Assembly: GCF_004923295.1 (NCBI RefSeq)
Contig: NZ_CP039638.1
Coordinates: 496,001 to 560,000 of the forward strand
Direction: 5' to 3'
Length of the DNA stretch: 64,000 nucleotides
From: Azospirillum sp. TSH100
Lineage (GTDB): Bacteria; Pseudomonadota; Alphaproteobacteria; Azospirillales; Azospirillaceae
Under the pieces are notes generated by a model that saw only the letters and a list, made by a program, of their open reading frames with translations, ran no database searches and was not told the origin of the DNA. Each line of letters starts with the position of its first letter. Position 1 is the stretch's first letter. A program made the position numbers and the translations under genes. Positions 39,293 to 61,947 of the stretch are shown in pieces.

Positions 39293-39496
39293 GGCATCCG
39301 CGCGTTTGTCGGCCGTCCAAACAGTTAGCGGGGACTGGGCAGGACTGGCAAGGGCGCCGTTGTTTCCCTCTCCCGCCGCCCAATCCCCTTTCCCCCCGGA
39401 AGAAGGGGAATTCCGGCTCCCTGCCCGAAATTTCACCACCCACACAGCCTCAGCCCGAAAATTGTGCGCACCCTATAAGGCGCATGCGCCCGAACG

Positions 39497-39538
39497 CTGT
39501 CCATTCCGTCAGTTCCTGTCCTTACGGACAAGTTTTCC
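39497..39538 (+). promoter_or_regulatory. Conserved upstream element with two RutR-like dyads
   Basis: Dyad 1 is CTGTCCATTCCGTCAG (39497-39512); dyad 2 is CTGTCCTTACGGACAA (39516-39531), 19 bp centre to centre. Each matches 9 of 14 fixed positions of the E. coli RutR consensus TTGACCA-N2-TGGTCAA. The block aligns without gaps to 55524-55565 at 33 of 42 positions. It lies about 60-95 bp upstream of the -24 element. Confidence 0.72.
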
Positions 39539-39587
39539 ATTCGCAATAACAACGCACTACTCGACAGACTCCACGACCGCACAGCCT

Positions 39588-39604
39588 CTGGCTCGCTTCT
39601 TGCT
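39588..39604 (+). promoter_or_regulatory. Sigma-54 promoter of the ABC importer operon
   Basis: CTGGCTCG-CTTC-TTGCT matches YTGGCACG-N4-TTGCW with one change (A to T). GG of the -24 and GC of the -12 element are exactly 10 bases apart, as required. Confidence 0.72.
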
Positions 39605-39646
39605 CTCATTCCCGCCGACAGACGCCAACGCGAAGGGACGAACGCC

Positions 39647-40489
39647 GTGCCAGCCGCCCAGCCCGCACCGCTCACTCTGGTTCCGCCGGCCGCAGACCCC
39701 GTGCCGCGCACCATCGTCGATGTCCGCAACCTGACCCTGACCTATCAGACCGCCGACCATCCGGTCTATGCGCTGAGCGACGTCAGCCTGTCGATCGCCA
39801 AGGGCGATTTCATCTCGCTGATCGGCCCCAGCGGCTGCGGCAAGACCACGCTGATGCGGGTCGTCGCCGACCTCGAACAGCCGACCTCCGGCGAGGTGAC
39901 GGTCAACGGCATGACGCCGGAACAGGCACGGCTGAAACGCGCCTACGGCTATGTCTTCCAGGCCCCGGCGCTCTACCCGTGGCGGACGGTCGAACGCAAC
40001 GTCATGCTGCCGCTGGAGATCATGGGGCTGCCCAAGGCCGAGCGGCAGCAGCGCGCCCGCGAGCAGCTCGACCTCGTCGGCCTGTCCGGCTTCGAGCGCA
40101 AGTTCCCTTGGCAGCTGTCGGGCGGCATGCAGCAGCGCGTGTCGATCGCCCGCGCTCTGGCCTTCAACCCCGACCTGCTTTTGATGGACGAACCGTTCGG
40201 CGCGCTCGACGAGATCACCCGCGACCATCTGAATTTGCAGCTAACCCGCCTGTGGCTCGGCACCCGCAAGACCTGCATCTTCGTCACCCACTCCATTGCC
40301 GAGGCGGTTTTCCTCTCCACCCGCATCGTGGTGATGAGCCCGCGCCCCGGCCGCATCCTCGACGTCATCGACTGCGACCGCGAGCTGCCGCGCGAGCGCA
40401 CGCTGGACATCCGCGAAAGCCCCGAATTCCAGCGCATCGCCCACCGCGTCCGCGAAGGGCTGATGGAGGGCCACAGCTATGACGACTAG
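39647..40489 (+). CDS. ABC transporter ATP-binding protein (ThiZ/SsuB-like; candidate pyrimidine importer)
   Basis: A 280-residue ATPase with Walker A GPSGCGKTT (60-68), Q-loop VFQAPALYPW, signature LSGGMQQR (157-164), Walker B LLLMDEPFGALD (from 177) and H-loop VTHSIAEAVF. It belongs to the nitrate/sulfonate/thiamine-precursor importer class. It starts at GTG with AAGGGA upstream. The next gene overlaps its end by 11 bp. It is the first gene of a four-gene importer operon behind a sigma-54 promoter like that of the pyrimidine operon. Confidence 0.93.
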   Translation: MPAAQPAPLTLVPPAADPVPRTIVDVRNLTLTYQTADHPVYALSDVSLSIAKGDFISLIGPSGCGKTTLMRVVADLEQPTSGEVTVNGMTPEQARLKRAYGYVFQAPALYPWRTVERNVMLPLEIMGLPKAERQQRAREQLDLVGLSGFERKFPWQLSGGMQQRVSIARALAFNPDLLLMDEPFGALDEITRDHLNLQLTRLWLGTRKTCIFVTHSIAEAVFLSTRIVVMSPRPGRILDVIDCDRELPRERTLDIRESPEFQRIAHRVREGLMEGHSYDD

Positions 40490-41351
40490 GAACACGCTGC
40501 CCGTCGCCGTGATGGCGCTGGCGGTGCTGGTGCTGTGGTATTTGGGCGCGGTCTGGCTGAACGCGCCGACGGCGACCGATGCGCTGAACCGCGCCGGTCC
40601 CGGCTGGACCACCGCCGACCTGATCCGCGCCACGCTGGCGATGAAGCGCCCGATCCTGCCGACGCCGGATCAGGTGGCGCTCGACCTCTACACCTCCCTG
40701 ACCGGCTATCCGGTGACCAGCATCCGCAACCTGCTCTACCACACCGGCGTCACCGCCGGGGCGGCGCTGGCCGGCTTCGGCATGGGCGTGGTTCTTGGTG
40801 TGGCGCTGGCGGCGGGGATCGTCCAGGCGCGCACGCTGGAATCGAGCCTGCTGCCCTGGGTCATCGCCTCGCAGACCGTGCCGATCCTGGCGATCGCGCC
40901 GATGATCGTGGTGATCCTCGGCAACATAGGCTTCACCGGCCTGCTGCCCAAGGCGATCATCGCCATGTATCTGTGCTTCTTCCCGATCACCATCGGCATG
41001 GTGAAGGGGCTGCGCTCCGCCGATCCGCTGACGCTCGACCTGATGCGCACCTACAGCGCCGGCACCGCCCAGACCTTCCGCCTGCTGCGCCTGCCGGCCT
41101 CCCTGCCCTATTTGTTCACCAGCCTGAAGATCGCGGTCGCCGCCAGCGTCGTCGGCGCCATCGTCGCCGAGCTGCCGACCGGCGGGCAGGCGGGGCTGGG
41201 AGCCCGGCTGCTGTCCGGCTCCTACTATGGCCAGACCGTGCAGATCTGGAGCGCGCTGGTGATGGCGGCATTGCTGAGCGTCACGCTGGTCGCCGCCGTC
41301 GGTCTCGCCGAACGGGCGCTGGTGCCGGGCGGCCGGGGAGGTGCGCGATGA
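40479..41351 (+). CDS. ABC transporter permease 1 of the importer
   Basis: A 290-residue permease of the SsuC/ThiX type with a hydrophobic N-terminal helix, about five further helices, and an EAA-loop region near the end (MRTYSAGTAQTFRLLRLPASLPYLFTSLKIAVAASVVGAIVAEL). The segment PILAIAPMIVVILGNIGF is characteristic. It overlaps both neighbours (11 bp with the ATPase, 4 bp ATGA with permease 2). Confidence 0.92.
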   Translation: MTTRNTLPVAVMALAVLVLWYLGAVWLNAPTATDALNRAGPGWTTADLIRATLAMKRPILPTPDQVALDLYTSLTGYPVTSIRNLLYHTGVTAGAALAGFGMGVVLGVALAAGIVQARTLESSLLPWVIASQTVPILAIAPMIVVILGNIGFTGLLPKAIIAMYLCFFPITIGMVKGLRSADPLTLDLMRTYSAGTAQTFRLLRLPASLPYLFTSLKIAVAASVVGAIVAELPTGGQAGLGARLLSGSYYGQTVQIWSALVMAALLSVTLVAAVGLAERALVPGGRGGAR

Positions 41352-42463
41352 GCCGGTCCAATATGGCACGCCCCAACATGGCGCCCTGGCCGCTGGTGAT
41401 GCTGGCCGCCCCGCTGCTGCCCTTCGCCACGCCCGACGGCACCGCCCTGTATCTGCCGCAGCTTCCCGTTGCCCTGGCCCTTTACGCCCTGACCGTCGCG
41501 ACGATCCTCGCCCACCGGCTGCCCGGCTCCGCCCTGGGCGAGGCCCTGCTCCTGCTCGCAGGAGTCGCCGCCGCCTATGCCGCCCCGCTGGTCCTGCTGA
41601 ACCAGGGCCACCCTCTCGCCCAGGCCGGCGGGCTTTGGCTGTATGTGGCCGGCGCCACCCTGCTGCTGTGGCGGGTGCTGGCCCTGCTGGCGGGGGTCAG
41701 CGGTCCGGTGCGGCTGGCCGGCCCCGCATTGTTCGGGCTGGCGCTGGTGCTGCTGTGGGAGGTCCTGACCCGCGGCTTCCAGGTCCCGACCATCCTGCTG
41801 CCGCCGCCGAGTCTCGTGCTGACCGCCTTCGCCGCCAATGCCGCCGACCTATGGGACGATTTCCGCCAGACGGTGCTGATCTCCGTGCTGCGCGGCTATC
41901 TGATCGGCTGCGGCGCCGGCTTCCTCGTCGCGATCCTGGCCGACCGGGTGCCCTTCCTGGCGCGCGGACTGCTGCCGCTCGGCAACCTCGCCAGCGCCGT
42001 GCCGGTGGTGGGCATCGCGCCGATCATGGTGATGTGGTTCGGCTTCGACTGGCAATCGAAGGCGGCCGTCATCGTGGTGATGACCTTCTTCCCCATGCTG
42101 ATCAACACGCTGGCCGGACTACAGAGCGCGGAGCGCATCCAACTCGACCTGATGCGATCCTACGGCGCCGGCTATTGGCGCACGCTGGCGATGCTGCGGC
42201 TTCCCTGCGCCTTGCCCTTTTTGTTCAACGGACTGAAGATCAACTCCACCCTGGCCCTGATCGGGGCCATCGTCGCCGAGTTCTTCGGGACGCCGGTGGT
42301 GGGGATGGGCTTCCGCATCTCCACCCAGGTCGCCCGGATGAATCTGGACGTGGTCTGGGCGACGATCGCCGTCGCCGCCCTGACCGGGTCGCTGCTCTAC
42401 GGTGCGCTGGCACTGGCGGAGCGGCATGTCACCGCCTGGCACCCGTCCTTCCGCAAACGCTGA
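41348..42463 (+). CDS. ABC transporter permease 2 of the importer
   Basis: A 371-residue permease, larger than its partner because of three to four extra N-terminal helices (residues ~12-135). The C-terminal two thirds is a normal SsuC/ThiX-type domain: SAVPVVGIAPIMVMWFGFDWQSKAAVIVVMTFFPMLINT and the EAA loop MRSYGAGYWRTLAMLRLPCALPFLFNGLK. Two different permeases imply a heterodimeric channel. Overlaps permease 1 by ATGA. Confidence 0.92.
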   Translation: MSRSNMARPNMAPWPLVMLAAPLLPFATPDGTALYLPQLPVALALYALTVATILAHRLPGSALGEALLLLAGVAAAYAAPLVLLNQGHPLAQAGGLWLYVAGATLLLWRVLALLAGVSGPVRLAGPALFGLALVLLWEVLTRGFQVPTILLPPPSLVLTAFAANAADLWDDFRQTVLISVLRGYLIGCGAGFLVAILADRVPFLARGLLPLGNLASAVPVVGIAPIMVMWFGFDWQSKAAVIVVMTFFPMLINTLAGLQSAERIQLDLMRSYGAGYWRTLAMLRLPCALPFLFNGLKINSTLALIGAIVAEFFGTPVVGMGFRISTQVARMNLDVVWATIAVAALTGSLLYGALALAERHVTAWHPSFRKR

Positions 42464-42535
42464 CCGACTTTCCGTCCTTCAAGCTCAAATGCCCTTCAAG
42501 CCAAACCAAGCCCAGCCAGAAGAGGATCGAACGCG

Positions 42536-43552
42536 ATGAAGACCCTTGCCTCCGCCGTCCTGCTCGCCGCCACCGCGCTCACCGGCCTCGCCGGCTGGGG
42601 CGCGCCGGCCGCCGCCGCCGATCCACTGACGCTCCAGCTGAAATGGGTCACCCAGGCCCAGTTCGCCGGCTATTACGTCGCGGCGGCCAAGGGCTTCTAC
42701 AAGGATGCCGGGCTGGACGTCACCATCAAGGCCGGCGGCCCCGACATCAACCCGACCCAGGTCATCGCCGCCGGCGGCGCCGACGTGATCGTCGACTGGA
42801 TGCCGTCGGCGCTGGCCAGCCGGGAAAAGGGCGTGCCGCTGGTCAACATCGCCCAGATGTTCCAGAAGTCGGGCATGATGCTGACCTGCCGCAAGGACGC
42901 CAACATCAAGGATCCAAAGGACTTCAAGGGCAACACGCTGGGCGTCTGGTTCTCCGGCAACGAATATCCGTTCCTGTCCTGGATGAGCAAGCTGGGCTAT
43001 TCCACCTCCGGCTCCAGCCCGGACGTGAAGGTGCTGAAGCAGGGCTTCAACGTCGACCCGCTTTTGCAGAAGCAGGCGGCCTGCATCTCCACCATGACCT
43101 ACAACGAATATTGGCAGCTGATCGAGGCCGGCATGAAGGCCGACGAGCTGACCGTCTTCAAGTATCAGGACCAGGGCGTCGCCACGCTGGAGGACGGCCT
43201 CTACGCAACCGAGAAGTCGCTGTCCGATCCGAAGATCGTCGAGAAGCTGGCGAAGTTCGTCAAGGCCTCGGCCAAGGGCTGGGAATATGCCGCGAAGAAT
43301 CAGGCCGAGGCGGTGAAGATCGTGCTGGAGAACGACACCACCGGCGCCCAGACCGAGGAGCACCAGACCACCATGATGCAGGAGGTCGCCAAGCTGATCG
43401 AGGGCGGCGCCAAGGGCACCGGCTATCTCGACCCGGCCGATTTCGACCGCACCGTCGGCATCCTGATGTCCGGCGCCTCGGCCCCGGTGATCTCCAAGAA
43501 GCCGGAAGGCGCCTACAGCCACGCGGTGTTCGACGCGGCGGCCAAGCTGTAA
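42536..43552 (+). CDS. ABC transporter substrate-binding protein, NMT1/THI5-like
   Basis: A 338-residue exported binding protein. Signal peptide: MKTLASAVLLAATALTGLAG... ending ...APAAAADP. The mature part starts LTLQLKWVTQAQFAGYYVAAAKGFYKDAGLDVTIKAGGPDINP, the classic opening of NMT1/THI5-like proteins that bind pyrimidine precursors such as formylaminopyrimidine or hydroxymethylpyrimidine. Fold and shared regulation with preT suggest a pyrimidine or related ring compound as ligand. Inference only. Confidence 0.92.
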   Translation: MKTLASAVLLAATALTGLAGWGAPAAAADPLTLQLKWVTQAQFAGYYVAAAKGFYKDAGLDVTIKAGGPDINPTQVIAAGGADVIVDWMPSALASREKGVPLVNIAQMFQKSGMMLTCRKDANIKDPKDFKGNTLGVWFSGNEYPFLSWMSKLGYSTSGSSPDVKVLKQGFNVDPLLQKQAACISTMTYNEYWQLIEAGMKADELTVFKYQDQGVATLEDGLYATEKSLSDPKIVEKLAKFVKASAKGWEYAAKNQAEAVKIVLENDTTGAQTEEHQTTMMQEVAKLIEGGAKGTGYLDPADFDRTVGILMSGASAPVISKKPEGAYSHAVFDAAAKL

Positions 43553-43642
43553 GGGCGTTGGCACTGGGGAGCGGGCGCTGCGCTTTGCCCGCTCCCCACC
43601 CATGAATTTCTCTCGGCAAAAGACTTTCCGCCCGCGGACACG

Positions 43643-43658
43643 CAGCGATATATTAGTA
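43643..43658 (+). promoter_or_regulatory. Hexuronate-type operator upstream of the first gntR gene
   Basis: CAGCGATATATTAGTA matches the local consensus TACTAATATATTAGTA at 12 of 16 positions, ending 47 bp before the GntR start at 43706, consistent with autoregulation. Confidence 0.62.
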
Positions 43659-43705
43659 AGCGCGGCCTCTTGGCATTGGCCGCCGCTGAATTGAATGGGA
43701 CGAGC

Positions 43706-44464
43706 ATGGACTCCAACGCGGGCGATACGAACATGGTGGCCGTGGCCGCACCGGCCCGCCGCCGCCGCCGCCGGCCCGCCAGCGCCACCGCAAGGCCCGC
43801 CCACCGTGGCGCCACCGTGTCGGGCACCATCTACCGCGACCTGCGCGACGACATCGTGTCCCTGCGGCGCAAGCCGGGCGAGCCGGTGATCGAGAAGGAG
43901 GTGGCGGACACCTATGGCGTCAGCCGCACCCCCGTGCGCGAGGCGATGCTGAAGCTCGCCGACGAGGGGCTGGTGGAGGTGTTCCCGCAGTCCGGCACCT
44001 TCGTCGCCCGCATCCCGATCGGCGCCCTGCCGGAGGCCATCGCCATCCGCCGCGCGCTGGAGGAGGCCACCGTGCGCTACGCCGCCGAACAGGCGAGCGG
44101 CAGCCAGGTGGCCCGGCTGCGCGCCAACCTGGAACTCCAGCGCGAGATGAAGGAGGCCGGCGATTTCGACGGCTTCCACGAGGCCGACGAGGCCTTCCAT
44201 GCCCTGCTGGCGGAAATCTCCGGCTATCCCGGCTTCTGGGCGGTGACCCAGCAGGTGAAGCGGCAGGTCGACCGCTACCGCCACCTGACCCTGCCGGCGA
44301 CCGGCCGGATGGACAAGGCGCTGACCGAACATGGCGCCGTCGTCGAGGCGATCGCCGCCCGCGATCCCGACCGCGCCGTCGCCGAGCTGCGCCACCACCT
44401 GACCGACCTGCAACTGGGCATCGCCGACGTCCGGCGCAGCTATCCGCAATATTTCACGGAGTGA
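43706..44464 (+). CDS. GntR-family (FCD) regulator, copy 1 of the hexuronate cluster
   Basis: A 252-residue regulator with an Arg-rich N-terminus, a GntR winged helix (IYRDLRDDIVSLRRKPGEPVIEKEVADTYGVSRTPVREAMLKLADEGLVEVFPQSGTFVARI) and a helical FCD ligand domain with metal-binding His/Asp residues (FHEADEAFHALL; EHGAVVEAI; LRHHLTDL). This is the UxuR/ExuR/KdgR-like subfamily that senses hexuronates or their products. A closely related copy lies at 47294-48088. The ATG at 43706 is preferred over a TTG at 43670. Confidence 0.88.
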   Translation: MDSNAGDTNMVAVAAPARRRRRRPASATARPAHRGATVSGTIYRDLRDDIVSLRRKPGEPVIEKEVADTYGVSRTPVREAMLKLADEGLVEVFPQSGTFVARIPIGALPEAIAIRRALEEATVRYAAEQASGSQVARLRANLELQREMKEAGDFDGFHEADEAFHALLAEISGYPGFWAVTQQVKRQVDRYRHLTLPATGRMDKALTEHGAVVEAIAARDPDRAVAELRHHLTDLQLGIADVRRSYPQYFTE

Positions 44465-44485
44465 GCCGGCCCGGAGTGAGCCGGC
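44457..44485. repeat. 14-bp direct repeat at the end of gntR copy 1
   Basis: CGGAGTGAGCCGGC occurs at 44457-44470 (spanning the stop codon) and 44472-44485. The second copy can pair with CCGGCGCTCAC just downstream, giving an imperfect hairpin between the convergent gntR and mgsA genes. Confidence 0.7.
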
Positions 44486-44495
44486 AGGCCGGCGC

Positions 44496-44951
44496 TCACA
44501 CCTTGCGCGTCTCGTAGGCGGTGAAGCTGGCGGCGCGCGGGGCGTAGCCGCTGGCGAAATGGGCGGAGGAGACGATCATGTCGGCCGTCGCCTCGTTGCA
44601 GGCCATCGGGATGTTGTAGAGCGTCGCAAGCCGGGTCAGCGCCTTCACGTCGACATCGTGCGGCTGGGCGGTCATCGGATCGACGAAGAAGACCAGCAGA
44701 TCGATCCGCCCCTCCGCGATCATCGCGCCGATCTGCTGGTCGCCGCCCAGCGGACCGCTCTTCAGCGGGGTCACGTCCAGGCGGGGATGGGCGTCGCGCA
44801 CCTTCTGGCCGGTCGTGCCGGTCGCCCAGAAGGCATGGCCGTCCAATGCCGCGATGTTGGCGCCGATCCAGGCGATCAGGTCCGCCTTGCGGGCGTCGTG
44901 GGCGACGAGGGCGATGCGCTTGCGGGGCTGGGCGGACTGTTGGGCGGTCAT
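44496..44951 (-). CDS. mgsA: Methylglyoxal synthase
   Basis: A 151-residue enzyme converting dihydroxyacetone phosphate to methylglyoxal and phosphate. The family pattern is complete: [98 protein letters not shown], including the catalytic Asp in GGDQQ and the phosphate-binding TGTTG. The start at 44951 gives the normal length. Its promoter carries the hexuronate operator (44979-44994), so it appears to be part of that regulon. Confidence 0.95.
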
Positions 44952-44978
44952 GGCTGGGCACTCCTGACGAAGACCGAT

Positions 44979-44994
44979 CACTAATATATTACCT
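44979..44994 (-). promoter_or_regulatory. Hexuronate-type operator upstream of mgsA
   Basis: The plus-strand text CACTAATATATTACCT matches TACTAATATATTAGTA at 12 of 16 positions; the core ACTAATATATTA is exact. It lies 28 bp upstream of the mgsA start. Confidence 0.65.
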
Positions 44995-45124
44995 TTGAAG
45001 CCGACGCAACGCGGCCCCAACCCCTGCCGCTTGCGCTGCCGCAATTCCCCTTTGTCCTTGCGACTTTGTCGCACCCTCCGCCGTCTGAAATGTCCGGCAC
45101 TCCATCATTAGAGCTTGCCCGGCT

Positions 45125-45140
45125 TACTAGTATATTAGTA
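45125..45140 (+). promoter_or_regulatory. Hexuronate-type operator upstream of kduI
   Basis: TACTAGTATATTAGTA is the best copy in the cluster: 15 of 16 to the consensus and 14 of 16 palindromic. It ends 56 bp before the kduI ATG. Confidence 0.75.
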
Positions 45141-45196
45141 TGATGGCGCCAGACCCGCCGGGACGCCGGCTGCACAGATTTAAAAGGAACCACCCC

Positions 45197-46033
45197 ATGA
45201 AAATCTCCGTCCGGCACGCCTCCCACCCCGACGCGGTCCGCGGCTTCGACACCGAGACGCTGCGCGATCATTTCCTGGTCCCGACCCTGTTCGAGGCGGA
45301 CGAGACCGTCTTCACCTACAGCCACATCGACCGTTTCGTCGTCGGCGGCGCCATGCCGGTGGCCGGCCCGCTGAAGCTGGAGTCCTCCAAGGAGATCGGC
45401 TCGCCCAACTTCCTCGACCGGCGCGAACTGGGTGTTGTCAATGTCGGCGGCGCCGGCCGGGTGACCGTCGACGGCGCCGTCTACGAACTGGCGCCGCGCG
45501 ACGCGCTCTATGTCGCGATGGGCAGCAAGGACGTCGTCTTCGAGAGCCTGGACCGCCGCGAGCCGGCCAAGTTCTACCTGAACAGCACCCCCGCCCATGC
45601 CCGCTTCGAGACGATGAAGATCTCGATCGGCCAGGCCAAGGCCGTGCATCTCGGCGACCCGGCCCAGTCGAACGAGCGCACCATCTACCAGATGATCCAC
45701 CCGGACGTCGTCCGCACCGCGCAGCTGGTTCTGGGCATGACGGTGCTGAAGCCGAACAACATGTGGAACACGATGCCGTGCCACACCCATGACCGGCGCT
45801 GCGAGGTCTATTTCTACTTCGACCTGCCGGAAGAGGCGCGCGTCATCCACCTGATGGGCGAGCCGGAGCAGACCCGCCACATCGTGGTCGCCAACGAGCA
45901 GGCGGTGATCTCGCCGCCCTGGTCGATCCATTCCGGCGTCGGCACCCGCAACTACACCTTCATCTGGGCGATGGGCGGCGACAACCAGGACTTCACGGAC
46001 ATGGACTTCGTCGCCATGGACCGCCTGCGCTGA
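45197..46033 (+). CDS. kduI: 5-keto-4-deoxyuronate isomerase (4-deoxy-L-threo-5-hexosulose-uronate ketol-isomerase)
   Basis: A 278-residue cupin enzyme, the same length as the E. coli enzyme. It turns 5-keto-4-deoxyuronate from pectin or glycan breakdown into 2,5-diketo-3-deoxygluconate. The zinc ligands fall at the textbook positions: His196, His198, Glu203 (CHTHDRRCEVYFYF) and His245 (WSIHSGVG). The ATG at 45197 has AAGGA upstream. The operon continues with kduD and kdgF. Confidence 0.96.
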   Translation: MKISVRHASHPDAVRGFDTETLRDHFLVPTLFEADETVFTYSHIDRFVVGGAMPVAGPLKLESSKEIGSPNFLDRRELGVVNVGGAGRVTVDGAVYELAPRDALYVAMGSKDVVFESLDRREPAKFYLNSTPAHARFETMKISIGQAKAVHLGDPAQSNERTIYQMIHPDVVRTAQLVLGMTVLKPNNMWNTMPCHTHDRRCEVYFYFDLPEEARVIHLMGEPEQTRHIVVANEQAVISPPWSIHSGVGTRNYTFIWAMGGDNQDFTDMDFVAMDRLR

Positions 46034-46078
46034 CGCTCCCCCAGATTTGAAGCCAACTTATAAGAACGGAAACCGACC

Positions 46079-46837: not shown

Positions 46838-46846
46838 CGGAAAACG

Positions 46847-46882
46847 GCCCTCCCCGCCCCTGACGGGCGGTGGAGGGCTTTC
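46847..46882 (+). terminator. Terminator-like hairpin between kduD and kdgF
   Basis: GCCCTCC-CCGCCC pairs with GGGCGG-T-GGAGGGC (13 pairs, one bulged T, 5-base loop) followed by TTTCTCTTT. It lies inside what looks like one operon and just before the kdgF ribosome-binding site. Confidence 0.7.
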
Positions 46883-46906
46883 TCTTTGGGGGGAGGAAAC
46901 CGGACA

Positions 46907-47290: not shown

Positions 47291-47293
47291 GGT

Positions 47294-48088: not shown

Positions 48089-48271
48089 GCAGATGTCGTG
48101 GGGCGGCGGTCCGCCATACGCGAGATGTTCCTCATCCCCAGCAATCTACCCATCCCTCTTCGTCAACGTCAAATCCATCGCCAGCTTCTCTTGTGGATCG
48201 GGTGCGGCGACTGGGCGCAGCCTTCACAGCCGCCGATGCCCGATCTGCGGAACGATTGGGCTTGCAATCAG

Positions 48272-48287
48272 ATCTGATATATTAATA
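48272..48287. promoter_or_regulatory. Hexuronate-type operator between gntR copy 2 and uxaC
   Basis: ATCTGATATATTAATA matches TACTAATATATTAGTA at 12 of 16 positions, in the 292-bp divergent gap. Nothing else in that gap stands out. Confidence 0.6.
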
Positions 48288-48380
48288 TTATACAGCCAGC
48301 CGGTAGGGACGGTCCCCCGCACGGACCCCGCCTTTTCCCCACCCTGCTTTTGCCCTTCTCTTGCAGCGTAGAGGCTTCCG

Positions 48381-49781
48381 ATGCTTCACCCCGACCGTCT
48401 TTTCCCGAGCGACCCGACGCAACGTGCCATCGCGCGCCGCCTGTACGGCGAAGTCGCCGCCCTGCCGATCGTCAGCCCGCACGGCCACACCGATCCGTCC
48501 TGGTTCGCCCAGAACGAGGCGTTCCCCGATCCGGCCAGCCTGTTCGTCAAGCCCGACCATTATGCATTCCGCATGCTCTACAGCCAGGGAATTCCGCTGG
48601 AGCAGCTGGGCGTTCCGCGCAGGGACGGCGGGGAGACCTCGACCGACTCGCGCGCCATCTGGCGCCTGCTGGCCAGCAACTGGCACCTGTTCCGCGGCAC
48701 GCCGACCTCGATGTGGCTGACCCACGCCTTCGAGACGGTGTTCGGCGTCACCGAGCGCCTGAGCGCCGCCAGCGCCGACCGCATCTACGACCAGATCGAA
48801 GACTGCCTGCGCAAGCCGGAATTCCGCCCGCGCGCCCTGTTCGAGCGCTTCAACCTCGAAGTGCTGGCGACCACCGAATCGCCGCTCGACCCGCTGGTGC
48901 ACCACAAGGCGATCCGCGAGAGCGGCTGGAAGGGCCGGGTCATCACCGCCTTCCGTCCCGACCCGGTCGTCGATCCGGAGTTCGAGGGCTTCCGCGACAA
49001 TCTCGCCGAGCTGGCCCGCATCACCGGCCAGGACACCGCGACCTGGGACGGCTATCTCGCGGCACTCGCCGACCGCCGCCTCTATTTCAAGAGCTATGGC
49101 GCCACCTCGACCGACCACGGCCACCCGACGGCGGCGACCGCCGATCTGCCGCGCGCCGAGGCCGAGAAGCTGTTCGACATCGTGCGCCGCGGCGGTGCGA
49201 CGGCCGAGGAGGCCGAGCTGTTCCGTGCCCAGATGCTGACCGAAATGGCGCGGATGAGCCTGGAGGACGGTCTGGTCATGCAGATCCACCCCGGTTCCTT
49301 CCGCAACCACAACACCCTCGTGTTCGAGCGTTTCGGCCGCGACAAGGGTGCGGACATCCCGAGCGGCACCGAGTATGTGCGGGCGCTGAAGCCGCTGCTC
49401 GACCGCTTCGGCAACGAGCGCGACCTGACCATCATCCTGTTCACGCTGGATGAGGACAGCTATTCCCGCGAGCTGGCGCCGCTGGCCGGCCATTACCCGG
49501 CGCTGCGCGTCGGCCCGGCCTGGTGGTTCCACGACAGCCCCGAGGGCATGCGCCGCTACCGCGAGATGATCACGGAGACCGCCGGCTTCTACAACACGGT
49601 CGGCTTCAACGACGACACCCGCGCCTTCTGCTCGATCCCGGCCCGCCACGACGTGTCGCGCCGCGTCGATTGCAGCTTCCTCGCCCGTCTGGTCGCCGAG
49701 CACCGGATGGAAGAGGACGAGGCCGCGGACCTGGCCGTCGACCTCGCTTACCGCCTCGCCAAGAACGCCTACAAGCTGTGA
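48381..49781 (+). CDS. uxaC: Glucuronate/galacturonate isomerase
   Basis: A 466-residue enzyme of the amidohydrolase-like uronate isomerase family, converting D-glucuronate to fructuronate and D-galacturonate to tagaturonate. Diagnostic are VSPHGHTDPSWFAQNEAF (metal His pair), the ATTESPLDPLVHHKAIRESGW and VITAFRPDPVVDPEF segments, GATSTDHGHPT, MQIHPGSFRNHN and ARHDVSRR. The length matches E. coli UxaC. It begins the rightward uxaC-uxaA-eamA-kdgK gene set. Confidence 0.96.
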   Translation: MLHPDRLFPSDPTQRAIARRLYGEVAALPIVSPHGHTDPSWFAQNEAFPDPASLFVKPDHYAFRMLYSQGIPLEQLGVPRRDGGETSTDSRAIWRLLASNWHLFRGTPTSMWLTHAFETVFGVTERLSAASADRIYDQIEDCLRKPEFRPRALFERFNLEVLATTESPLDPLVHHKAIRESGWKGRVITAFRPDPVVDPEFEGFRDNLAELARITGQDTATWDGYLAALADRRLYFKSYGATSTDHGHPTAATADLPRAEAEKLFDIVRRGGATAEEAELFRAQMLTEMARMSLEDGLVMQIHPGSFRNHNTLVFERFGRDKGADIPSGTEYVRALKPLLDRFGNERDLTIILFTLDEDSYSRELAPLAGHYPALRVGPAWWFHDSPEGMRRYREMITETAGFYNTVGFNDDTRAFCSIPARHDVSRRVDCSFLARLVAEHRMEEDEAADLAVDLAYRLAKNAYKL

Positions 49782-49844
49782 TTGCCCGGCCGCGCCGGAC
49801 CCCGTTCCGGCGCGGCCCAGCTTACTCCTCAAGGACATCTTCCC

Positions 49845-51368
49845 ATGGCATCGCTGACCATCCGCCTGCACCCCGCCGACAACGTCGTCGTCGCCGGCGC
49901 CGACCTGGAGCCCGGCACCACCCTGCCCGGCACTGAAGTGGCGACCACCGGGCCGGTGCCGGCCGGGCACAAGGTCGCGGTGCGCGCCATCGCGCCGGGC
50001 GAGCCGGTGCGCAAGTACAATCAGGTCATCGGCTTCGCCACCACGGCGATCCAGCCGGGCGACCATGTCCACGTCCACAACATGGGCATGGGCAGCGATT
50101 TCGAGCGCGATTACGCCTTCGGCGCCGACGTCCATCCGGTCGAACCGATCCCGGAGGCCGAGCGCGCCACCTTCCAGGGCATCCTTCGCCCGGACGGCCG
50201 CGTCGCCACCCGCAACTATATCGGCGTGCTGACCTCGGTGAACTGCTCCGCCACCGCGGCGCGGATGATCGCCGACCATTTCCGCGGTCCCGCGCTCGCC
50301 GCCTATCCCAACATCGACGGCGTCGTCGCCCTGACCCACGGCTACGGCTGCGGCATGGCCGGCAGCGGCGAGGTGATGGACACGCTGCGCCGGACCATCG
50401 CCGGCTACGCCCGCCACCCGAACTTCGCCGCCGTCATCCTGCTGGGTCTCGGCTGCGAGGTGAACCAGATCGACAAGCTGATGGAGGCCACCGGCCTTGA
50501 GGAGGGCGCCCGCGTCATCCCCATCGGCATCCAGGACATGGGCGGCACCGCCGCGGCGGCCCGCGAGGGCATCCGCCGGATCGAGGCGCTGCTGCCGGAG
50601 ATCAACGACGTCACCCGCCAGACCCTGCCGGCCAGCCACCTGACGCTGGCGCTGCAATGCGGCGGCTCCGACGGCTATTCGGGCATCACCGCCAACCCGG
50701 CGCTGGGCTATGCCGTCGACCTGCTGGTGCGCAACGGCGGCACCGCCGTGCTGAGCGAGACGCCGGAGGTCTATGGCGCCGAGCATCTGCTGACCCGCCG
50801 CGCCGTCCGCCGCGAGGTGGGCGAGGCGCTGGTCGAGCGCATCGGCTGGTGGGAGGAGTACACCAGCCGCACCGGCGGCGAGATGAACAACAACCCGTCG
50901 CCCGGCAACAAGAAGGGTGGCCTGACCACCATCCTGGAGAAGTCGCTGGGCGCGGTCGCCAAGGGCGGCACCACCCCGATGACCGCCGTCTACCGCTATG
51001 CCGAGCCGATCACCGACAAGGGCTTCGTCTTCATGGACACCCCCGGCTACGATCCGGTGTCGGCGACGGGGCAGGTGGCGGGCGGCGCCAACGTTCTGTG
51101 CTTCACCACCGGCCGCGGCTCCGTCTTCGGCTGCAAGCCGACGCCCAGCCTGAAGCTGGCGACCAACAGCGCGCTGTTCCGCCGGATGCCGGACGACATG
51201 GACATCGATTGCGGCGCCATCGCCACCGGCGACGCCTCGATCGAGGAGGTCGGCCGCGCGATCTTCCAGCTGGTGCTCGACACCGCGTCGGGCCGCAAGA
51301 CCAAGAGCGAGGAGCTCGGCGTCGGCGCCGACGAATTCGCCCCTTGGCAGATGGGAGCGGTCATGTAA
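49845..51368 (+). CDS. uxaA: Altronate dehydratase family protein
   Basis: A 507-residue dehydratase with an N-terminal SAF domain (VRAIAPGEPVRKYNQVIGFATTAIQPGDHVHVHNM) and a large C-terminal catalytic domain. Conserved Cys segments (TSVNCSATAARMIADHF, THGYGCGMAGSGEVMDTLRRT, LGCEVNQID, LQCGGSDGYSGITANPALGYAVDLL) are consistent with an Fe-dependent UxaA/GarD enzyme. The context (uxaC, kdgK) favours altronate over galactarate as substrate, giving 2-keto-3-deoxygluconate. The ATG at 49845 has AAGGA upstream. Confidence 0.92.
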   Translation: MASLTIRLHPADNVVVAGADLEPGTTLPGTEVATTGPVPAGHKVAVRAIAPGEPVRKYNQVIGFATTAIQPGDHVHVHNMGMGSDFERDYAFGADVHPVEPIPEAERATFQGILRPDGRVATRNYIGVLTSVNCSATAARMIADHFRGPALAAYPNIDGVVALTHGYGCGMAGSGEVMDTLRRTIAGYARHPNFAAVILLGLGCEVNQIDKLMEATGLEEGARVIPIGIQDMGGTAAAAREGIRRIEALLPEINDVTRQTLPASHLTLALQCGGSDGYSGITANPALGYAVDLLVRNGGTAVLSETPEVYGAEHLLTRRAVRREVGEALVERIGWWEEYTSRTGGEMNNNPSPGNKKGGLTTILEKSLGAVAKGGTTPMTAVYRYAEPITDKGFVFMDTPGYDPVSATGQVAGGANVLCFTTGRGSVFGCKPTPSLKLATNSALFRRMPDDMDIDCGAIATGDASIEEVGRAIFQLVLDTASGRKTKSEELGVGADEFAPWQMGAVM

Positions 51369-51410
51369 GGGGTCCTGCCCCTTATCGGAAACCGTAGACG
51401 AGCCGGCGCC

Positions 51411-52394
51411 ATGCCCGACAGTTCCCCCCCTCTCCCTGGCTCCCGCACCGACGCCGGTCCCGAACCGGTGAACGCGCCGCAGACCCCGATCCAGCCAACT
51501 GGACCGGGGGTCAAGGGCACGGAGCCGATGCGGGCGATCCTGCTGGTGGTGCTGGCGGTGGCCTGCCTGTCCTGCTCCGACGCCACGGCGAAATATCTCG
51601 GCCGCACCCTGCCGCCGGCCGAGATCGCCTGGATGCGCTATGTCGTCTTCACCGCGCTGGTGATGCCGCTGGCCCTGCGCGGCGGCTCGCTCAGCGTGCT
51701 GAAGACGACGCGGCCGGGGCTTCAGGTGGTGCGCGGCCTGGGCATGCTCGGCTCGGCCCTGTTCTTCATCATGGCGATGCAGCATCTGCCGCTGGCCGAA
51801 GCCGCGGCGATCAGCTTCGTCTCCCCCGTCTTCGTCACCGTGCTGTCGATCCTGCTGTTGGCCGAGAAGGTCGGCATCCGCCGCTGGGCGGCGCTGCTGG
51901 TCGGGCTGGCCGGCGTGCTGATCGTCATCCGGCCGGGAGAGGACGGTTTCCAGCCCGCCTCGCTGCTGCCGATCCTGACCGCCTTCAGCTGGGCGCTCGG
52001 TCTGGTGGTGACGCGCAGGATGACGGTGCAGGAAAACCCGCTGACCACCATGGTGTGGAGCGCGCTCACCGGCCTGATCGTGCTGACCGCCCTGCTTCCC
52101 CTGCATGCGGCATGGCCGACGCCGTGGGAGATGCTGCTGGGGGCCTTCATCGGGCTGGTCTACACCGCATCGCAATGGCTGCTGATCCTGGCCTACCGCC
52201 AGGGCGAGGCATCGGTGCTGGCGCCCTTCACCTATGTGCAGCTGATCTGGTCGACGGCGCTGGGATACCTCGTCTTCGGCGCGGTGCCCGACCAGTGGAC
52301 CTTCGTCGGCACCGGCGTGATCATCGCCAGCGGCCTCTACACCGCCCACCGCGAACGGATGCGGGCACAGCTGCGCCGCTCCGCAGCGTCATGA
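51411..52394 (+). CDS. EamA/DMT-family transporter
   Basis: A 327-residue membrane protein with about ten helices in two EamA repeats, preceded by a ~38-residue soluble, proline-rich N-terminus. Markers include LLVVLAVACLSCSDATAKYLGRTLPPAEIAWMRY and VLAPFTYVQLIWSTALGYLVFG. It lies 42 bp after uxaA and 43 bp before kdgK, so it is probably in the same operon and might move uronates or their products. The substrate is unproven. No other uronate transporter is present here. Confidence 0.85.
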   Translation: MPDSSPPLPGSRTDAGPEPVNAPQTPIQPTGPGVKGTEPMRAILLVVLAVACLSCSDATAKYLGRTLPPAEIAWMRYVVFTALVMPLALRGGSLSVLKTTRPGLQVVRGLGMLGSALFFIMAMQHLPLAEAAAISFVSPVFVTVLSILLLAEKVGIRRWAALLVGLAGVLIVIRPGEDGFQPASLLPILTAFSWALGLVVTRRMTVQENPLTTMVWSALTGLIVLTALLPLHAAWPTPWEMLLGAFIGLVYTASQWLLILAYRQGEASVLAPFTYVQLIWSTALGYLVFGAVPDQWTFVGTGVIIASGLYTAHRERMRAQLRRSAAS

Positions 52395-52437
52395 ACAGGA
52401 AGTCGCCGGGGCGATCCCCGGCTTGTGGAGAAGAAGC

Positions 52438-53358
52438 ATGACCGACACGCCCAACCGCGTCGCCGCGCTCGGCGAATGCATGATCGAGATGTTCCGGCGG
52501 CCGGACGGGTCGCTGACCATGGGCTTCGGCGGCGACACGCTGAACACCGCGGTCTATCTGGCGCGTCTGGGCACGCCGGTCGACTATGTCACCGCTCTCG
52601 GCGACGACAGCATCAGCGACGACATGGTGAAGGCCTGGGCGGCCGAAGGGGTGGGCACCGGCCACGTCCTGCGCGTGCCGAACCGCCTGCCCGGCCTCTA
52701 CATGATCGAGACCGATCCCAGCGGCGAGCGCCGCTTTCTCTACTGGCGCGACCGGGCGCCGGCCCGCGAACTGTTCGCCCTGCCCCAGACGCCGGAGCTG
52801 TCCAGGGCACTGGAGGGCTACGGCATCGTCTATCTGTCCGGCATCAGCATCGCCATCCTGGGCGAGCAGGGCCGCGAGCGCCTGTTCGAGCTGCTGGAGC
52901 GGGTCCGTGCGCAGGGCGGCAAGGTCGCCTTCGACACCAACTGGCGCCCGCGCCTGTGGCCGGACATCGAGACCGCCCGCGCCGCCTTCGACCGCATGCT
53001 TGCGCTGACCGACATCGCGCTGCCCGGCGTCACCGACCTGCGCGACCTCTATGGGGATGCCGATGCCGACGCCGTTCTGGCCCGCGTCCGCAAGGCCGGT
53101 GTGGCCGAGATCGTCCTGAAGCTGGAACAGCCCGGCTGCATCGTGATCGAGAATGGCGAAGCGATCGAGGTGCCCGCCCTGAAGGTCGCCACCGTGGTCG
53201 ACACCACGGCGGCCGGCGACAGCTTCAGCGCCGGCTATCTGGCATCCCGCCTGCGCGGCGAGGGTCCGGCCGACGCCGCCCGCGCCGCCCACAAGCTGGC
53301 CGCCGCCGTCATCCAGCACCGCGGCGCCATCATCCCGCGCGACGCCATGCCGGCCTGA
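52438..53358 (+). CDS. kdgK: 2-keto-3-deoxygluconate kinase
   Basis: A 306-residue PfkB/ribokinase-family sugar kinase that phosphorylates 2-keto-3-deoxygluconate to KDPG for the Entner-Doudoroff aldolase. Substrate-binding GECMIEMFRR and GGDTLNTAVYLARLG; ATP site and catalytic Asp in VVDTTAAGDSFSAGYLASRL. It receives the products of both the KduI-KduD and UxaC-UxaA branches. The aldolase itself is not in the window. Confidence 0.94.
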   Translation: MTDTPNRVAALGECMIEMFRRPDGSLTMGFGGDTLNTAVYLARLGTPVDYVTALGDDSISDDMVKAWAAEGVGTGHVLRVPNRLPGLYMIETDPSGERRFLYWRDRAPARELFALPQTPELSRALEGYGIVYLSGISIAILGEQGRERLFELLERVRAQGGKVAFDTNWRPRLWPDIETARAAFDRMLALTDIALPGVTDLRDLYGDADADAVLARVRKAGVAEIVLKLEQPGCIVIENGEAIEVPALKVATVVDTTAAGDSFSAGYLASRLRGEGPADAARAAHKLAAAVIQHRGAIIPRDAMPA

Positions 53359-53380
53359 GCGCCGGTTTCAAGCCGACATA

Positions 53381-53983
53381 TCAGCCTTCCGCCGCCAGTT
53401 CGCGGCGGAAGGCACGGCCCGCCATCTGCGCGACGGCGGTGAGCGCCGCCTCGTCCGCGCCGTCACGCGCCGCCGCCGACATTCCCCGCATCGTCATCGT
53501 CACGAAATCCGCCAGCGTGTCGGCCCGCTCCGGCGCCTCCCCGGCGATGAAGTCGCGGATCGCCGACACGCCGGCCTTGCGCATCGCCCCGGCCAGCGCA
53601 CAGGCCTCCGCATCGGCGCTGTTGCGCGCGCCGTCGAGCACGAGGCAGCCGGCCACGCCGTTGCGCTCCGGATAGAGGCGCGCCGCCAGCAGCAGCGTGC
53701 GTTCGATCACCTCAGCCACGCCGCCGCCCTCCGCCCGCGCCCGGGCGAAGATGTTGGCCTCCCCCGCCGCATAGCGCTGAAGCGCCCGCTCGAACAGCCC
53801 GGCCTTGCTGCCGAAGGCCGCATAGAAGCTCGGCGGCTTGATCCCCAGTTCGGTGCCCAGTTCGGCGACGCCCACGGCGTCGTAGCCGCGCGCGTGGAAC
53901 AGCCTCATCGCGGTCTCGACCGCCTCGTCCACGTCGAAGGACCGCCGCCGTCCCCGCGATCCGGAGGATTCTGTAGCGACCAC
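53381..53983 (-). CDS. bdcR: TetR-family regulator, BdcR-like
   Basis: A 200-residue TetR regulator with helix-turn-helix DEAVETAMRLFHARGYDAVGVAELGTELGIKPPSFYAAFGSKAGLFERALQRYA. It is divergent from a bdcA homologue, as in E. coli, where BdcR represses bdcA. The best start is a GTG at 53983 with AAGGAG 8 bases upstream; the longer frame would run across bdcA. One of two direct-repeat operators overlaps this start codon. Confidence 0.85.
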   Translation of the reverse strand: MVATESSGSRGRRRSFDVDEAVETAMRLFHARGYDAVGVAELGTELGIKPPSFYAAFGSKAGLFERALQRYAAGEANIFARARAEGGGVAEVIERTLLLAARLYPERNGVAGCLVLDGARNSADAEACALAGAMRKAGVSAIRDFIAGEAPERADTLADFVTMTMRGMSAAARDGADEAALTAVAQMAGRAFRRELAAEG

Positions 53984-54044
53984 TATATTTTCTCCTTGCG
54001 CAAATCCCTCGCCCGCATTTATATAGCGCTCACTACATTTTCTC
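53974..54044. promoter_or_regulatory. Twin BdcR operators in the bdcR-bdcA gap
   Basis: A 21-bp sequence occurs twice in the same orientation with three differences: 53974-53994 and 54024-54044. Each begins with an imperfect dyad, TAGCG-N2-CACTA, and continues TATATTTTCTC or TACATTTTCTC. The two dyads are 50 bp apart, one over each gene's start region. Confidence 0.72.
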
Positions 54045-54056
54045 AAGGAGCACATC

Positions 54057-54770
54057 ATGGGTGAGTTCACCGGCCGCAAGATCCTGGTCCTCGGCGGCAG
54101 CCGCGGCATCGGCAAGGCCATCGTCCGCCGCTTCGCCAAGGCCGGCGGTGCGGTCGCCTTCACCTATGCCGGGTCGAAGGACGCCGCCGAGGCGCTGGCC
54201 GCCGAAACCGGCGCGGAGGCCATCCAAACCGACAGCGCCGACCGCGACGCCCTGATCGCCACGGTGGCCGACCGCGGCGCGCTGGACGTGCTGGTCGTCA
54301 ATGCCGGCACGGCGATCCTCGGCGATCCGCTGACCTTCGATCCCGACGCCGTCGACCGGATGATCGACATCAACGTCCGCGCGCCCTACCACGCGGCGGT
54401 CGAAGCGGCCCGGCGCATGAATGACGGCGGGCGCATCATCGTCATCGGCTCGGTCAACGGCGACCGCATGCCGTTTGCCGGCGGGGCCGCCTATGCCCTG
54501 ACCAAATCGGCGGTCCAGGGCATGGTGCGCGGCCTCGCCCGCGATTTCGGCGACCGCGGCATCACCGTGAACGCGATCCAGCCGGGTCCGACCCACAGCG
54601 ACATGAACCCGGCCGACGGCCCGATGGCGCCCGCCATGCACGGCTTCATGGCGATCAAGCGCCACATCGACGCCGACGAGGTCGCCGAACTGACCGCCTA
54701 TGTCGCCGGCCCGCATGCCGCGATGATCACCGGCTCGTTCCAGACCATCGACGGCGGCTTCGGCGCCTGA
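54057..54770 (+). CDS. bdcA: SDR oxidoreductase, BdcA-like c-di-GMP-binding protein
   Basis: A 237-residue short-chain dehydrogenase-fold protein that closely follows E. coli BdcA along its length: GEFTGRKILVLGGSRGIGKAIVRRF, FTYAGSKDAAEALAAETGA, DSADRDA, LDVLVVNAG, INVRAPYHAAVEAARRM, IIVIGSVNGDRMPFAG, FQTIDGGFGA. E. coli BdcA is reported to bind c-di-GMP and promote biofilm dispersal. The catalytic Tyr/Lys (AAYALTKSAV) are intact, so an enzymatic role is also possible. AAGGAG precedes the ATG. Confidence 0.9.
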   Translation: MGEFTGRKILVLGGSRGIGKAIVRRFAKAGGAVAFTYAGSKDAAEALAAETGAEAIQTDSADRDALIATVADRGALDVLVVNAGTAILGDPLTFDPDAVDRMIDINVRAPYHAAVEAARRMNDGGRIIVIGSVNGDRMPFAGGAAYALTKSAVQGMVRGLARDFGDRGITVNAIQPGPTHSDMNPADGPMAPAMHGFMAIKRHIDADEVAELTAYVAGPHAAMITGSFQTIDGGFGA

Positions 54771-54777
54771 CGGCGAA

Positions 54778-55323
54778 TCAATGGAAGAGGCCGAAGGGGC
54801 GGTCCGGTCGGAACGCCCCTTCATGGGCCAGCAGCCAGCGCTTGCGCTCCATCCCGCCGCCATAGCCGGTCAGCGTTCCATCCGATCCGATCACCCGGTG
54901 ACAGGGCACGACGATGCCGACCGGGTTGGCGCCATTGGCATGCCCCGCCGCCCGCACCGCCGCCGGCCGCCCGGCCAGCACGGCAAGCTCGCGATAGCTG
55001 ACGGTGCCGCCACAGGGGATCCCGCGCAGCGCCGCCCACACCGCCCGTTGGAACGGCGTCCCGCCGGTGCGCACCGGCAGCCGGTCGATCACCGCAAGCT
55101 CGCCCGCGAAATAGGCATCCATCGCCCGAGTGAACCCGCCCGGATCACGGGACAGGCGCAGTTCGTAGCCGCCGGGATGGTGCAGGCGCAGCAGCCGGTG
55201 CAGCCGGTCCTCATGGTCGGTCCAGTCGATGGCGCGCAGGGCGCCGTCTTCATCCGCCACCACGATCAACTCGCCGATGGGCGTCGCGGTGCGGTCGATC
55301 AGCAGTCTGGAGACGGCGGACAT
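54778..55323 (-). CDS. ogt: Methylated-DNA-protein-cysteine methyltransferase
   Basis: A 181-residue suicide DNA-repair protein that removes O6-alkyl groups from guanine. The acceptor is Cys141 in NPVGIVVPCHRVIGSDG, with the helix-turn-helix and Arg finger in YRELAVLAGRPAAVRAAGHAN. It has an N-terminal alpha/beta domain like Ogt. The start at 55323 is chosen because the extended frame upstream has no homology. It is convergent with bdcA (7-bp gap) and divergent from preT. Confidence 0.93.
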   Translation of the reverse strand: MSAVSRLLIDRTATPIGELIVVADEDGALRAIDWTDHEDRLHRLLRLHHPGGYELRLSRDPGGFTRAMDAYFAGELAVIDRLPVRTGGTPFQRAVWAALRGIPCGGTVSYRELAVLAGRPAAVRAAGHANGANPVGIVVPCHRVIGSDGTLTGYGGGMERKRWLLAHEGAFRPDRPFGLFH

Positions 55324-55523
55324 CACGGCACCCCCTATCCCGGTCGCATAGGTGCGCTGCCAAATTTGAAGGCAGCGCACCTCCAACGCAACCCTTTGAT
55401 ACAACGCAATTTCCTGTTTCCGCGCTTGCGAATTCCCATGCGTTTCTTGCGTATCGCCGCGAAAAGAGGCGCCAAAAGGCTGAGTTGCGTGCAATCAGCA
55501 TGGCTGGCATGATGTGCCCATGC

Positions 55524-55565
55524 CTGTCCATACCGTCAGTTCTTGACCGAACAGTCAGCTTTTCC
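55524..55565 (+). promoter_or_regulatory. Upstream element with two RutR-like dyads, copy at preT
   Basis: Dyad 1 is CTGTCCATACCGTCAG (55524-55539); dyad 2 is TTGACCGAACAGTCAG (55543-55558), matching the E. coli RutR consensus at 10 of 14 fixed positions. Centres are 19 bp apart, as in the copy at 39497-39538. The block ends 36 bp before the -24 element. Confidence 0.75.
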
Positions 55566-55601
55566 GCCGCCCAACGCCGTTGGCAGTGCTGGTTGGTTCT
55601 C

Positions 55602-55618
55602 TTGGCACGCGGGTTGCT
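55602..55618 (+). promoter_or_regulatory. Sigma-54 promoter of the pyrimidine operon
   Basis: TTGGCACG-CGGG-TTGCT is a full match to YTGGCACG-N4-TTGCW, with GG and GC 10 bases apart. It lies 50 bp before the preT start. Confidence 0.85.

Positions 55619-59779: not shown

Positions 59780-61947
<2,168 letters not shown>

Follow-up and report, generated by a model that had tools for sequence, protein, structure and literature searches.

How two operons 16 kb apart come to carry the same control region, and what that region does, is the question raised by a 64,000-nucleotide stretch of DNA from Azospirillum sp. TSH100 (contig NZ_CP039638.1, positions 496,001 to 560,000; hereafter the window, whose numbering is used below unless another locus is named). 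The window is part of a 583-kb contig in a genome of 7.17 Mb and 8 contigs. One operon encodes an ATP-binding cassette (ABC) importer and the other encodes enzymes of pyrimidine catabolism. An earlier note on this DNA had described each control region as a -24/-12 sigma-54 element preceded by a 42-bp block with two RutR-like dyads, and had taken the dyads to be placed like an enhancer. The anatomy proved correct. We now consider it likely, from the features described below, that the two operons form one regulon under sigma-54 promoters gated by a RutR-like repressor, with NtrC as the most likely activator and with quenching of the loop between activator and promoter.

Two control regions of the same build

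The two blocks align without gaps at 33 of 42 positions, as the earlier note had stated; among 1000 dinucleotide-shuffled pairs, the mean was 22.0 and the maximum 26. Each block is made of two RutR-type 16-mers, YTGWC-N6-GWCAR, set 19 bp apart, and all four dyads have 10/10 key positions. No tandem dyads scoring at least 18/20 were found in the window at any other spacing from 14 to 30 bp. When a 39-base pattern of the block was searched through the whole genome with at most 3 mismatches, it occurred at 2 places, the two blocks themselves, and at none in the reversed control. The earlier proposal of a common sigma-54-type promoter that links the importer to the pyrimidine operon is supported.

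Downstream of the blocks, both -24/-12 elements (Table 1) have the GG-N10-GC spacing that had been claimed for them. The exact pattern TGGCACGNNNNTTGCW, which the preT element alone satisfies, was found 9 times in the genome and 2 times in the reversed control; thus, the element is not unique alone, and its pairing with the block is. A sigma-70 scan of both control regions returned no sigma-70-like site, which speaks against a sigma-70 promoter that uses the RutR box as its -35 region.

Operon 1 (39647-43552) carries the genes of an ABC importer, namely an ATPase, a pair of permeases and an NMT1/THI5-like binding protein. Operon 2 (55668-61947) encodes PreT, PreA, a Zn amidohydrolase, a RutR-like TetR-family regulator and dihydropyrimidinase; since PreA and dihydropyrimidinase both score above their curated cut-offs, it is identified as a reductive pyrimidine catabolic operon. 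The Zn amidohydrolase also matches NF006769, 'allantoate amidohydrolase' (695 bits, cut-off 452), and its context makes the beta-ureidopropionase role probable. The regulator has a TetR_N domain plus a YcdC-like C-terminal domain, and its closest solved structures are those of Escherichia coli RutR (3loc, 3.3e-47). The genome encodes one RpoN and an NtrC (745.6 bits, cut-off 558.6). In the window, no activator gene adjoins the two operons. This replicon encodes a single strong sigma-54 activator domain, which does not belong to NtrC and is located ~142 kb ahead of the window.

We propose that a sigma-54 activator, most likely NtrC, would occupy sites about 35-75 bp ahead of the block; when nitrogen is short, it would contact the promoter by looping. 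The RutR-like TetR repressor from the catabolic operon would bind the two tandem operators between activator and promoter and would thereby stop the productive loop (quenching) until uracil, thymine or an intermediate released it. The output would be an AND gate, requiring that ammonium be absent and a pyrimidine be present. Because the repressor gene lies within operon 2, the repressor should also limit its own expression. These parts differ in strength: repression by the RutR-like protein from the tandem operators appears quite likely, binding of NtrC upstream of the block somewhat likely, and interference with the loop, instead of simple competition, stands at even chances. The promoter design itself is real, conserved and common to both operons, and its gating is most likely by nitrogen and pyrimidine.

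Table 1. Features of the two operons and their control regions in the window (TSS, transcription start site)
Feature	Position	Strand	Remarks
Candidate enhancer dyad 2, importer: TGCCCGAAATTTCACCA	39422..39438		TGC-N11-GCA type; weak alone
Candidate enhancer dyad 1, importer: AGCCCGAAAATTGTGCG	39452..39468		weak alone
42-bp block, importer copy	39497..39538	+	33/42 vs preT copy; 23/42 columns invariant, 14 importer loci
RutR-type operator A, importer	39497..39512		10/10 key positions
RutR-type operator B, importer	39516..39531		19 bp from A; 10/10 key positions
-24/-12 element, importer: TGGCTCGCTTCTTGCT	39589..39604	+	11/12; TSS predicted about 39615
ABC importer ATPase	39647..40489	+	PF00005; GTG start
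ABC importer permease 1	40479..41351	+	PF00528
ABC importer permease 2	41348..42463	+	PF00528
NMT1/THI5-like substrate-binding protein of the importer	42536..43552	+	PF09084 3.7e-45; relatives within pyrimidine clusters
Conserved upstream dyad of preT, candidate enhancer site: CGCCGCGAAAAGAGGCG	55455..55471		about 4/6 key bases
Conserved GTTGCGTGCAA element upstream of preT	55484..55494		11/11 columns invariant, 14 genomes
42-bp block, preT copy	55524..55565	+	32/42 columns invariant, 14 genomes
RutR-type operator A, preT	55524..55539		centre about -98; 10/10 key positions
RutR-type operator B, preT	55543..55558		centre about -79; 10/10 key positions
-24/-12 element, preT: TGGCACGCGGGTTGCT	55603..55618	+	12/12; TSS predicted about 55629
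preT, NAD(P)-dependent subunit of dihydropyrimidine dehydrogenase	55668..56978	+	PF14691 Fer4_20, PF07992; named by place before preA
preA, dihydropyrimidine dehydrogenase subunit	56996..58282	+	NF006183 686.7 bits, cut-off 335
Zn amidohydrolase (hydantoinase/carbamoylase family), probable beta-ureidopropionase	58320..59603	+	TIGR01879 427 bits, cut-off 204
RutR-like TetR-family regulator	59765..60490	+	PF08362 and PF00440 above cut-off
hydA, dihydropyrimidinase	60505..61947	+	TIGR02033 584 bits, cut-off 393

Conservation and spacing in Azospirillum and its relatives

Conservation was followed through 45 genomes of the genus. The block and the -24/-12 element were present together at 22 of the 23 preT loci counted (at least 63% identity; 30 loci fetched, those excluded, L032-L038, carrying oxidoreductases only 33-37% identical). 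At the importer, they were found at 17 of 25 ABC-ATPase loci (again of 30 fetched; the ATPases of the excluded L064-L068 are 46-47% identical), and the eight misses (L056-L063) belong to a more diverged importer. Four further genomes (G013, G034, G044 and G018) carry block and element at the importer locus; in G013, G034 and G044, the binding-protein gene follows them at 300-420 bp, and neither an ATPase nor a permease gene intervenes. In all, 21 of the 22 genus genomes whose binding protein is at least 86% identical have the importer block and element. The importer ATPase and permease genes of G018 (L239, 6718-8741) match in pieces, as if frame-shifted, and their block and promoter are intact.

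Outside the genus, both operons of Insolitispirillum peregrinum share this layout, with a poor first dyad at preT (tandem score 17/20) and a preT -24/-12 element that ends in TTGAT. A composite pattern of tandem dyads, a gap of 26-56 and a -24/-12 element was matched 22 times, in 21 of the 82 genomes searched in the order, and never in the control; hardly any importer copy falls within this range of gaps. When the gap was set to 31-61, the pattern was matched 4 times among 385 genomes of the class, in 2 genomes, and again never in the control; these 2 are the only Azospirillum genomes in that sample. A TGAC-starting form of the pattern was found in none of the 82 genomes of the order and none of the 385 of the class.

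The distances between block and promoter follow rules. We measured them only at loci bearing the block, Insolitispirillum included, for which the -24/-12 pattern was widened to accept the TTGAT end. At preT, the block starts 79 bp before the element in 14 loci, 90 bp in 2 and 68 bp in 7 (n=23); at the importer, the distance is 92 bp in 18 loci, 91 in 2 and 93 in 2 (n=22). The distance from element to start codon, by contrast, ranges widely at these loci (57 to 325). In 14 genomes, the preT element is invariant at 15/16 columns and the importer element at 9/16; between block and element, 14/37 columns are invariant at preT and 1/49 at the importer, where the length is nevertheless fixed. All changes of spacing at preT, those of the conserved upstream sequence included, come in 11-bp steps, close to one turn of the helix.

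Similarly, sequence upstream of the preT block moves in steps of this size. The offset of the 17-bp dyad CGCCGCGAAAAGAGGCG is -69 in 16 of the 22 loci and -58 in the other 6, and AGGCTGAGTTGCGTGCA, an alternative candidate site, recurs at -47 and -36 in 15 and 5 loci, so that both pairs of offsets track the 11-bp shift. Between the GTTGCGTGCAA element and the block, the distance is 40 bp in 16 loci and 29 bp in 5; in the one remaining locus of the 22, the element was not found. Upstream of the importer block, dyad 2 recurs at -75 in 12 of 17 loci with at least 4/6 key bases and dyad 1 at -45 in 11 of 17, 30 bp from dyad 2, mostly in close species. The NtrC motif of Sinorhizobium meliloti is TGC-N11-GCA (PMC10746234); dyads of this type recur at several positions upstream of the blocks, but they are weak and ambiguous. 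An E. coli-type NtrC consensus was also tried in both regions, and its best matches, with 5-6 mismatches of 14, were judged to be chance without a formal test.

Probable operators within a sigma-54-type control region

The earlier note knew of no description of this arrangement, a claim of novelty that is too strong in view of E. coli rutA. In the E. coli rutR-rutA region, we found a RutR-type box, TTGACCGTTTAGTCCA, at 622-637 and a -24/-12 element at 702-717; the box starts 80 bp before the element, with its centre near -98, and NtrC-like dyads at 578 and 599 differ from the consensus at 4 and 5 of 14 positions. Two papers report for rutA a RutR box, NtrC sites, a sigma-factor start and NtrC-dependent expression (PMC10891134), and a sigma-54 site (PMC4591121). 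By sequence, a -24/-12 element and a RutR-type operator upstream of it, as in a rutA-type promoter, are present in Azospirillum, with preT operator A likewise centred at about -98, ambiguous candidate NtrC-type dyads further upstream and pyrimidine catabolic genes downstream. The systems differ in that one operator was found at rutA and two, 19 bp apart, in Azospirillum; in that rutABCDEFG encodes the oxidative Rut pathway, whereas Azospirillum has the reductive PreTA-HydA pathway plus an ABC importer operon; and in the regulator gene, which is divergent in E. coli and inside the operon in Azospirillum. In the open-licence literature, we recognised no earlier report that combined RutR and sigma-54 at genes of the reductive pathway; the RutR regulons of RegPrecise, a resource named in PMC5343134, may already list these operators. 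This kind of arrangement is therefore not new in itself; new here are its link to the reductive pathway, operators in tandem, an importer with the same control region and distances locked to the helix.

A second precedent is engineered. In synthetic enhancers, TetR was placed between NtrC sites and a sigma-54 promoter; depending on the helical phase, the bound protein quenches output or raises it, and indels of 10-11 bp are tolerated (PMC4740811). The Azospirillum promoters would be a putative natural case, having in common with those constructs TetR-family sites between activator and sigma-54 promoter and a tolerance of helical turns, and their spacing rules fit the behaviour of the synthetic enhancers. 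We tentatively suggest a natural quenching enhancer, in which two RutR-like dimers inside the activator-promoter loop of both promoters would act as a geometric switch. If so, evolution would have changed the preT distances only by whole helical turns (11 bp) and would have kept the importer distance constant to 1 bp, whereas much of the spacer sequence from operator to promoter would have stayed free to vary.

The same dyads occur at pyrimidine loci elsewhere, mostly without sigma-54 elements. Among 79 named preT loci with a full 400-bp upstream region, taken from the best 80 of 576 relatives, 16 have a 10/10 dyad and 36 a dyad of at least 9/10, as compared with 36 of 1600 random windows from the same loci that hold a 10/10 dyad. 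Three other genera of the family have 10/10 dyads before preT. The 16-mers TTGACCAACTGGTCAA in Skermanella and TTGACCAAATGGTCAA in G057 lie upstream of preT, and CTGACCAAACGGTCAA in Thalassospira lies before a TetR gene; no -24/-12 element was found at any of these places. Occurrence of this 16-mer type at preT without a sigma-54 element favours a RutR-type operator and disfavours a private enhancer of another activator. The six survey loci with an element of at least 10/12 are from two Azospirillum, Insolitispirillum, Leisingera (with no dyad), Aureimonas leprariae (9/10 dyad downstream of the element) and a Polaromonas metagenome-assembled genome (L184). Reductive operons of other alphaproteobacteria thus share with Azospirillum the 16-mer type, the enzymes and often the nearby importer, but most lack the preT -24/-12 element. 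Klebsiella plasmid p2_21223 and L184 resemble Azospirillum in having an 11/12 element plus a RutR-type dyad before preT, but in these two the operator begins 31-34 bp past the start of the element, where it covers the predicted TSS as an ordinary repressor site would; at the Klebsiella importer, the operator is 29 bp downstream of the element start. This plasmid of Klebsiella quasipneumoniae (L073, 2680-12977) carries, near transposase genes, a reductive pyrimidine cluster that includes an importer and a TetR gene of its own, and -24/-12-like elements of 10/12 and 11/12 precede both operons.

Further -24/-12-like elements lie before amidohydrolase-importer operons in six genomes of three other genera of the family (G045, G057, G077, G078, G079 and G081; 10-11/12); near these six, no RutR-type dyad was found save one of 9/10 in G057. 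In a fourth genus (G051, G052), a 9/10 dyad precedes the ATPase gene and elements of only 9-10/12 lie further upstream. L242, L243 and L246-L249, from other genera of the family, have such an element before this operon, and a strong RutR-type box was seen only at preT/rutR in those fetched stretches that include these genes; sigma-54 control may predate the tandem operators. Neither dyad nor element was found within 500 bp of preT in Burkholderia cenocepacia or Caballeronia. Dihydropyrimidine dehydrogenase, dihydropyrimidinase and a putative pyrimidine permease are reported to be lowered in an ntrC mutant of B. cenocepacia H111 (PMC5491218), and an ntrC mutant of Pseudomonas stutzeri to be compromised on uracil and thymine (PMC8443478).

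Several observations weigh against gating by a RutR-like repressor with NtrC as activator. The regulator, which the earlier note called RutR, is indeed RutR-like and encoded in the second operon, but it scores 202.4 bits against TIGR03613, the RutR equivalog model, whose cut-off of 368 it does not reach. The dyads have 4-5 mismatches of 14 from the E. coli-type TTGACCANNTGGTCAA, from which E. coli's own box has 3, and their TGTC/GACA halves are unusual. The genome has 21 strong sigma-54 activator AAA+ domains, and the NtrC-type dyads match only about 4-5/6 key bases. The importer pair is not kept in distant species (0/17 columns invariant), and at preT, dyad offsets of -69, -47, -76 and -66 all recur because the whole region is conserved; between the -12 and the start codon, 40/49 columns are invariant in 14 genomes, so that conservation alone tells less at preT. 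One preT locus (L031, 63% identical) has no block, nor has the importer of G002 within the 10 kb upstream that were searched, and some importer elements are weak (L055, 9/12; L043, L045 and L217, 10/12). A single insertion may account for both 90-bp loci, and most of the 68-bp group belongs to one clade; independent 11-bp steps are therefore few, about three in our judgement, made without a tree.

Our main alternative is that the tandem dyads are themselves the enhancer sites of another sigma-54 activator, with RutR acting elsewhere or not at all. Enhancer sites typically lie at about -80 to -110, in tandem and helically locked to the promoter, and the block has all of these traits; moreover, the 21 activator domains leave the identity of the activator ambiguous, as are the candidate sites upstream. 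Against this stands the 16-mer type itself, which precedes preT or rutR in alphaproteobacteria that lack a -24/-12 element at this place, and precedes a diverged importer of the same genome, also without an element; in addition, sequence upstream of the block is conserved as well. We therefore judge this explanation unlikely. A RutR-like protein as the sigma-54 activator was ruled out, since only TetR_N and TetR_C_3 domains were found in the regulator and the TetR family is not known to have the AAA+ domain of sigma-54 activators. For this reason, the block, which the earlier note had likened to an enhancer, is best read as a repressor operator in the interval between enhancer and promoter.

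If the block is such an operator, RutR could still compete plainly with the activator at overlapping or abutting sites, with no effect on looping. The E. coli rutA NtrC-like site at 599-615 ends 6 bp before the operator (622), and some activator sites could lie in or beside the Azospirillum block. However, the conserved preT dyad is 41 or 52 bp from the block, and competition leaves unexplained why the importer keeps a fixed length between block and promoter while its sequence is free, which makes plain competition rather improbable. It is also conceivable that the -24/-12 elements are fortuitous and that the operons have a sigma-70-type promoter plus a RutR box, probably as in most alphaproteobacteria, given that 73 of the 79 named preT loci lack an element of at least 10/12. 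The near-invariance of the preT element, the empty sigma-70 scan and the rarity of elements of at least 11/12 (1 in 1600 random 400-bp background windows) make this a very slight prospect. Gating by a RutR-like repressor of an activator-driven sigma-54 promoter remains the reading that we prefer.

The importer, its second copy and neighbouring genes

The importer, which the earlier note called anonymous, has relatives that lie in pyrimidine clusters of other genera. Relatives of its binding protein occur inside such clusters in Thalassospira marina, Sinorhizobium meliloti Ak57, the K. quasipneumoniae plasmid and Deinococcus actinosclerus, and importer relatives occur within them in other genera of the family (G045, G057, G051, G052 and G077). 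At 30 of the 80 named preT loci, the importer was present in the fetched stretch (ATPase above 250 or binding protein above 150 bits), 23 of the 80 stretches being shorter than 21 kb. Among the matches listed, no NCBIfam model was above its cut-off for the importer. The place of its relatives points to a predicted pyrimidine importer.

A second copy on contig C1 (G000, L241 2099-5041) has an ATPase 83% identical, with a GTG start, and two permeases; a close copy of the binding protein is absent behind it. A single 10/10 RutR-type dyad starts 66 bp before its start codon, with no -24/-12 element, and this copy is possibly a third RutR target; that the dyad is kept in only 2 of 8 relatives tells against it. 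Directly behind this copy (L241 5049-8305) is a 12/12 -24/-12-like element, TGGCACGGTCATTGCT, followed by open reading frames that look like those of a further ABC importer, with an ATPase at 5625, a permease at 6391 and a binding protein at 7238.

Five open reading frames between the two promoters were scanned. Two, kduI and a glucuronate isomerase gene, were above cut-offs; a galactarate/altronate-dehydratase-type protein and two GntR-type regulators gave matches below cut-offs. These genes look like hexuronate catabolism, unrelated to pyrimidines. Upstream of the importer (39360-39420, with counterparts in L040-L050), the aligned species differ in a G+C-rich CCCTCTCCC...GGGAGAGG stretch that looks like a short mobile repeat. 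At the other end, a minus-strand open reading frame rich in GGxGxDxLxGG-type repeats (61996-63894) faces the dihydropyrimidinase gene, its end 48 bp beyond that gene.

These observations suggest a pyrimidine function for an importer family that the records examined name only as an ABC importer or as sulfonate, nitrate or 'myristoyl transferase' parts. The proposed regulon would extend the logic of E. coli rutA to the reductive pathway in a plant-associated genus. With operator-promoter distances one or two helical turns apart, the Azospirillum promoters would form a natural set for a direct test of how a repressor acts in a sigma-54 loop.

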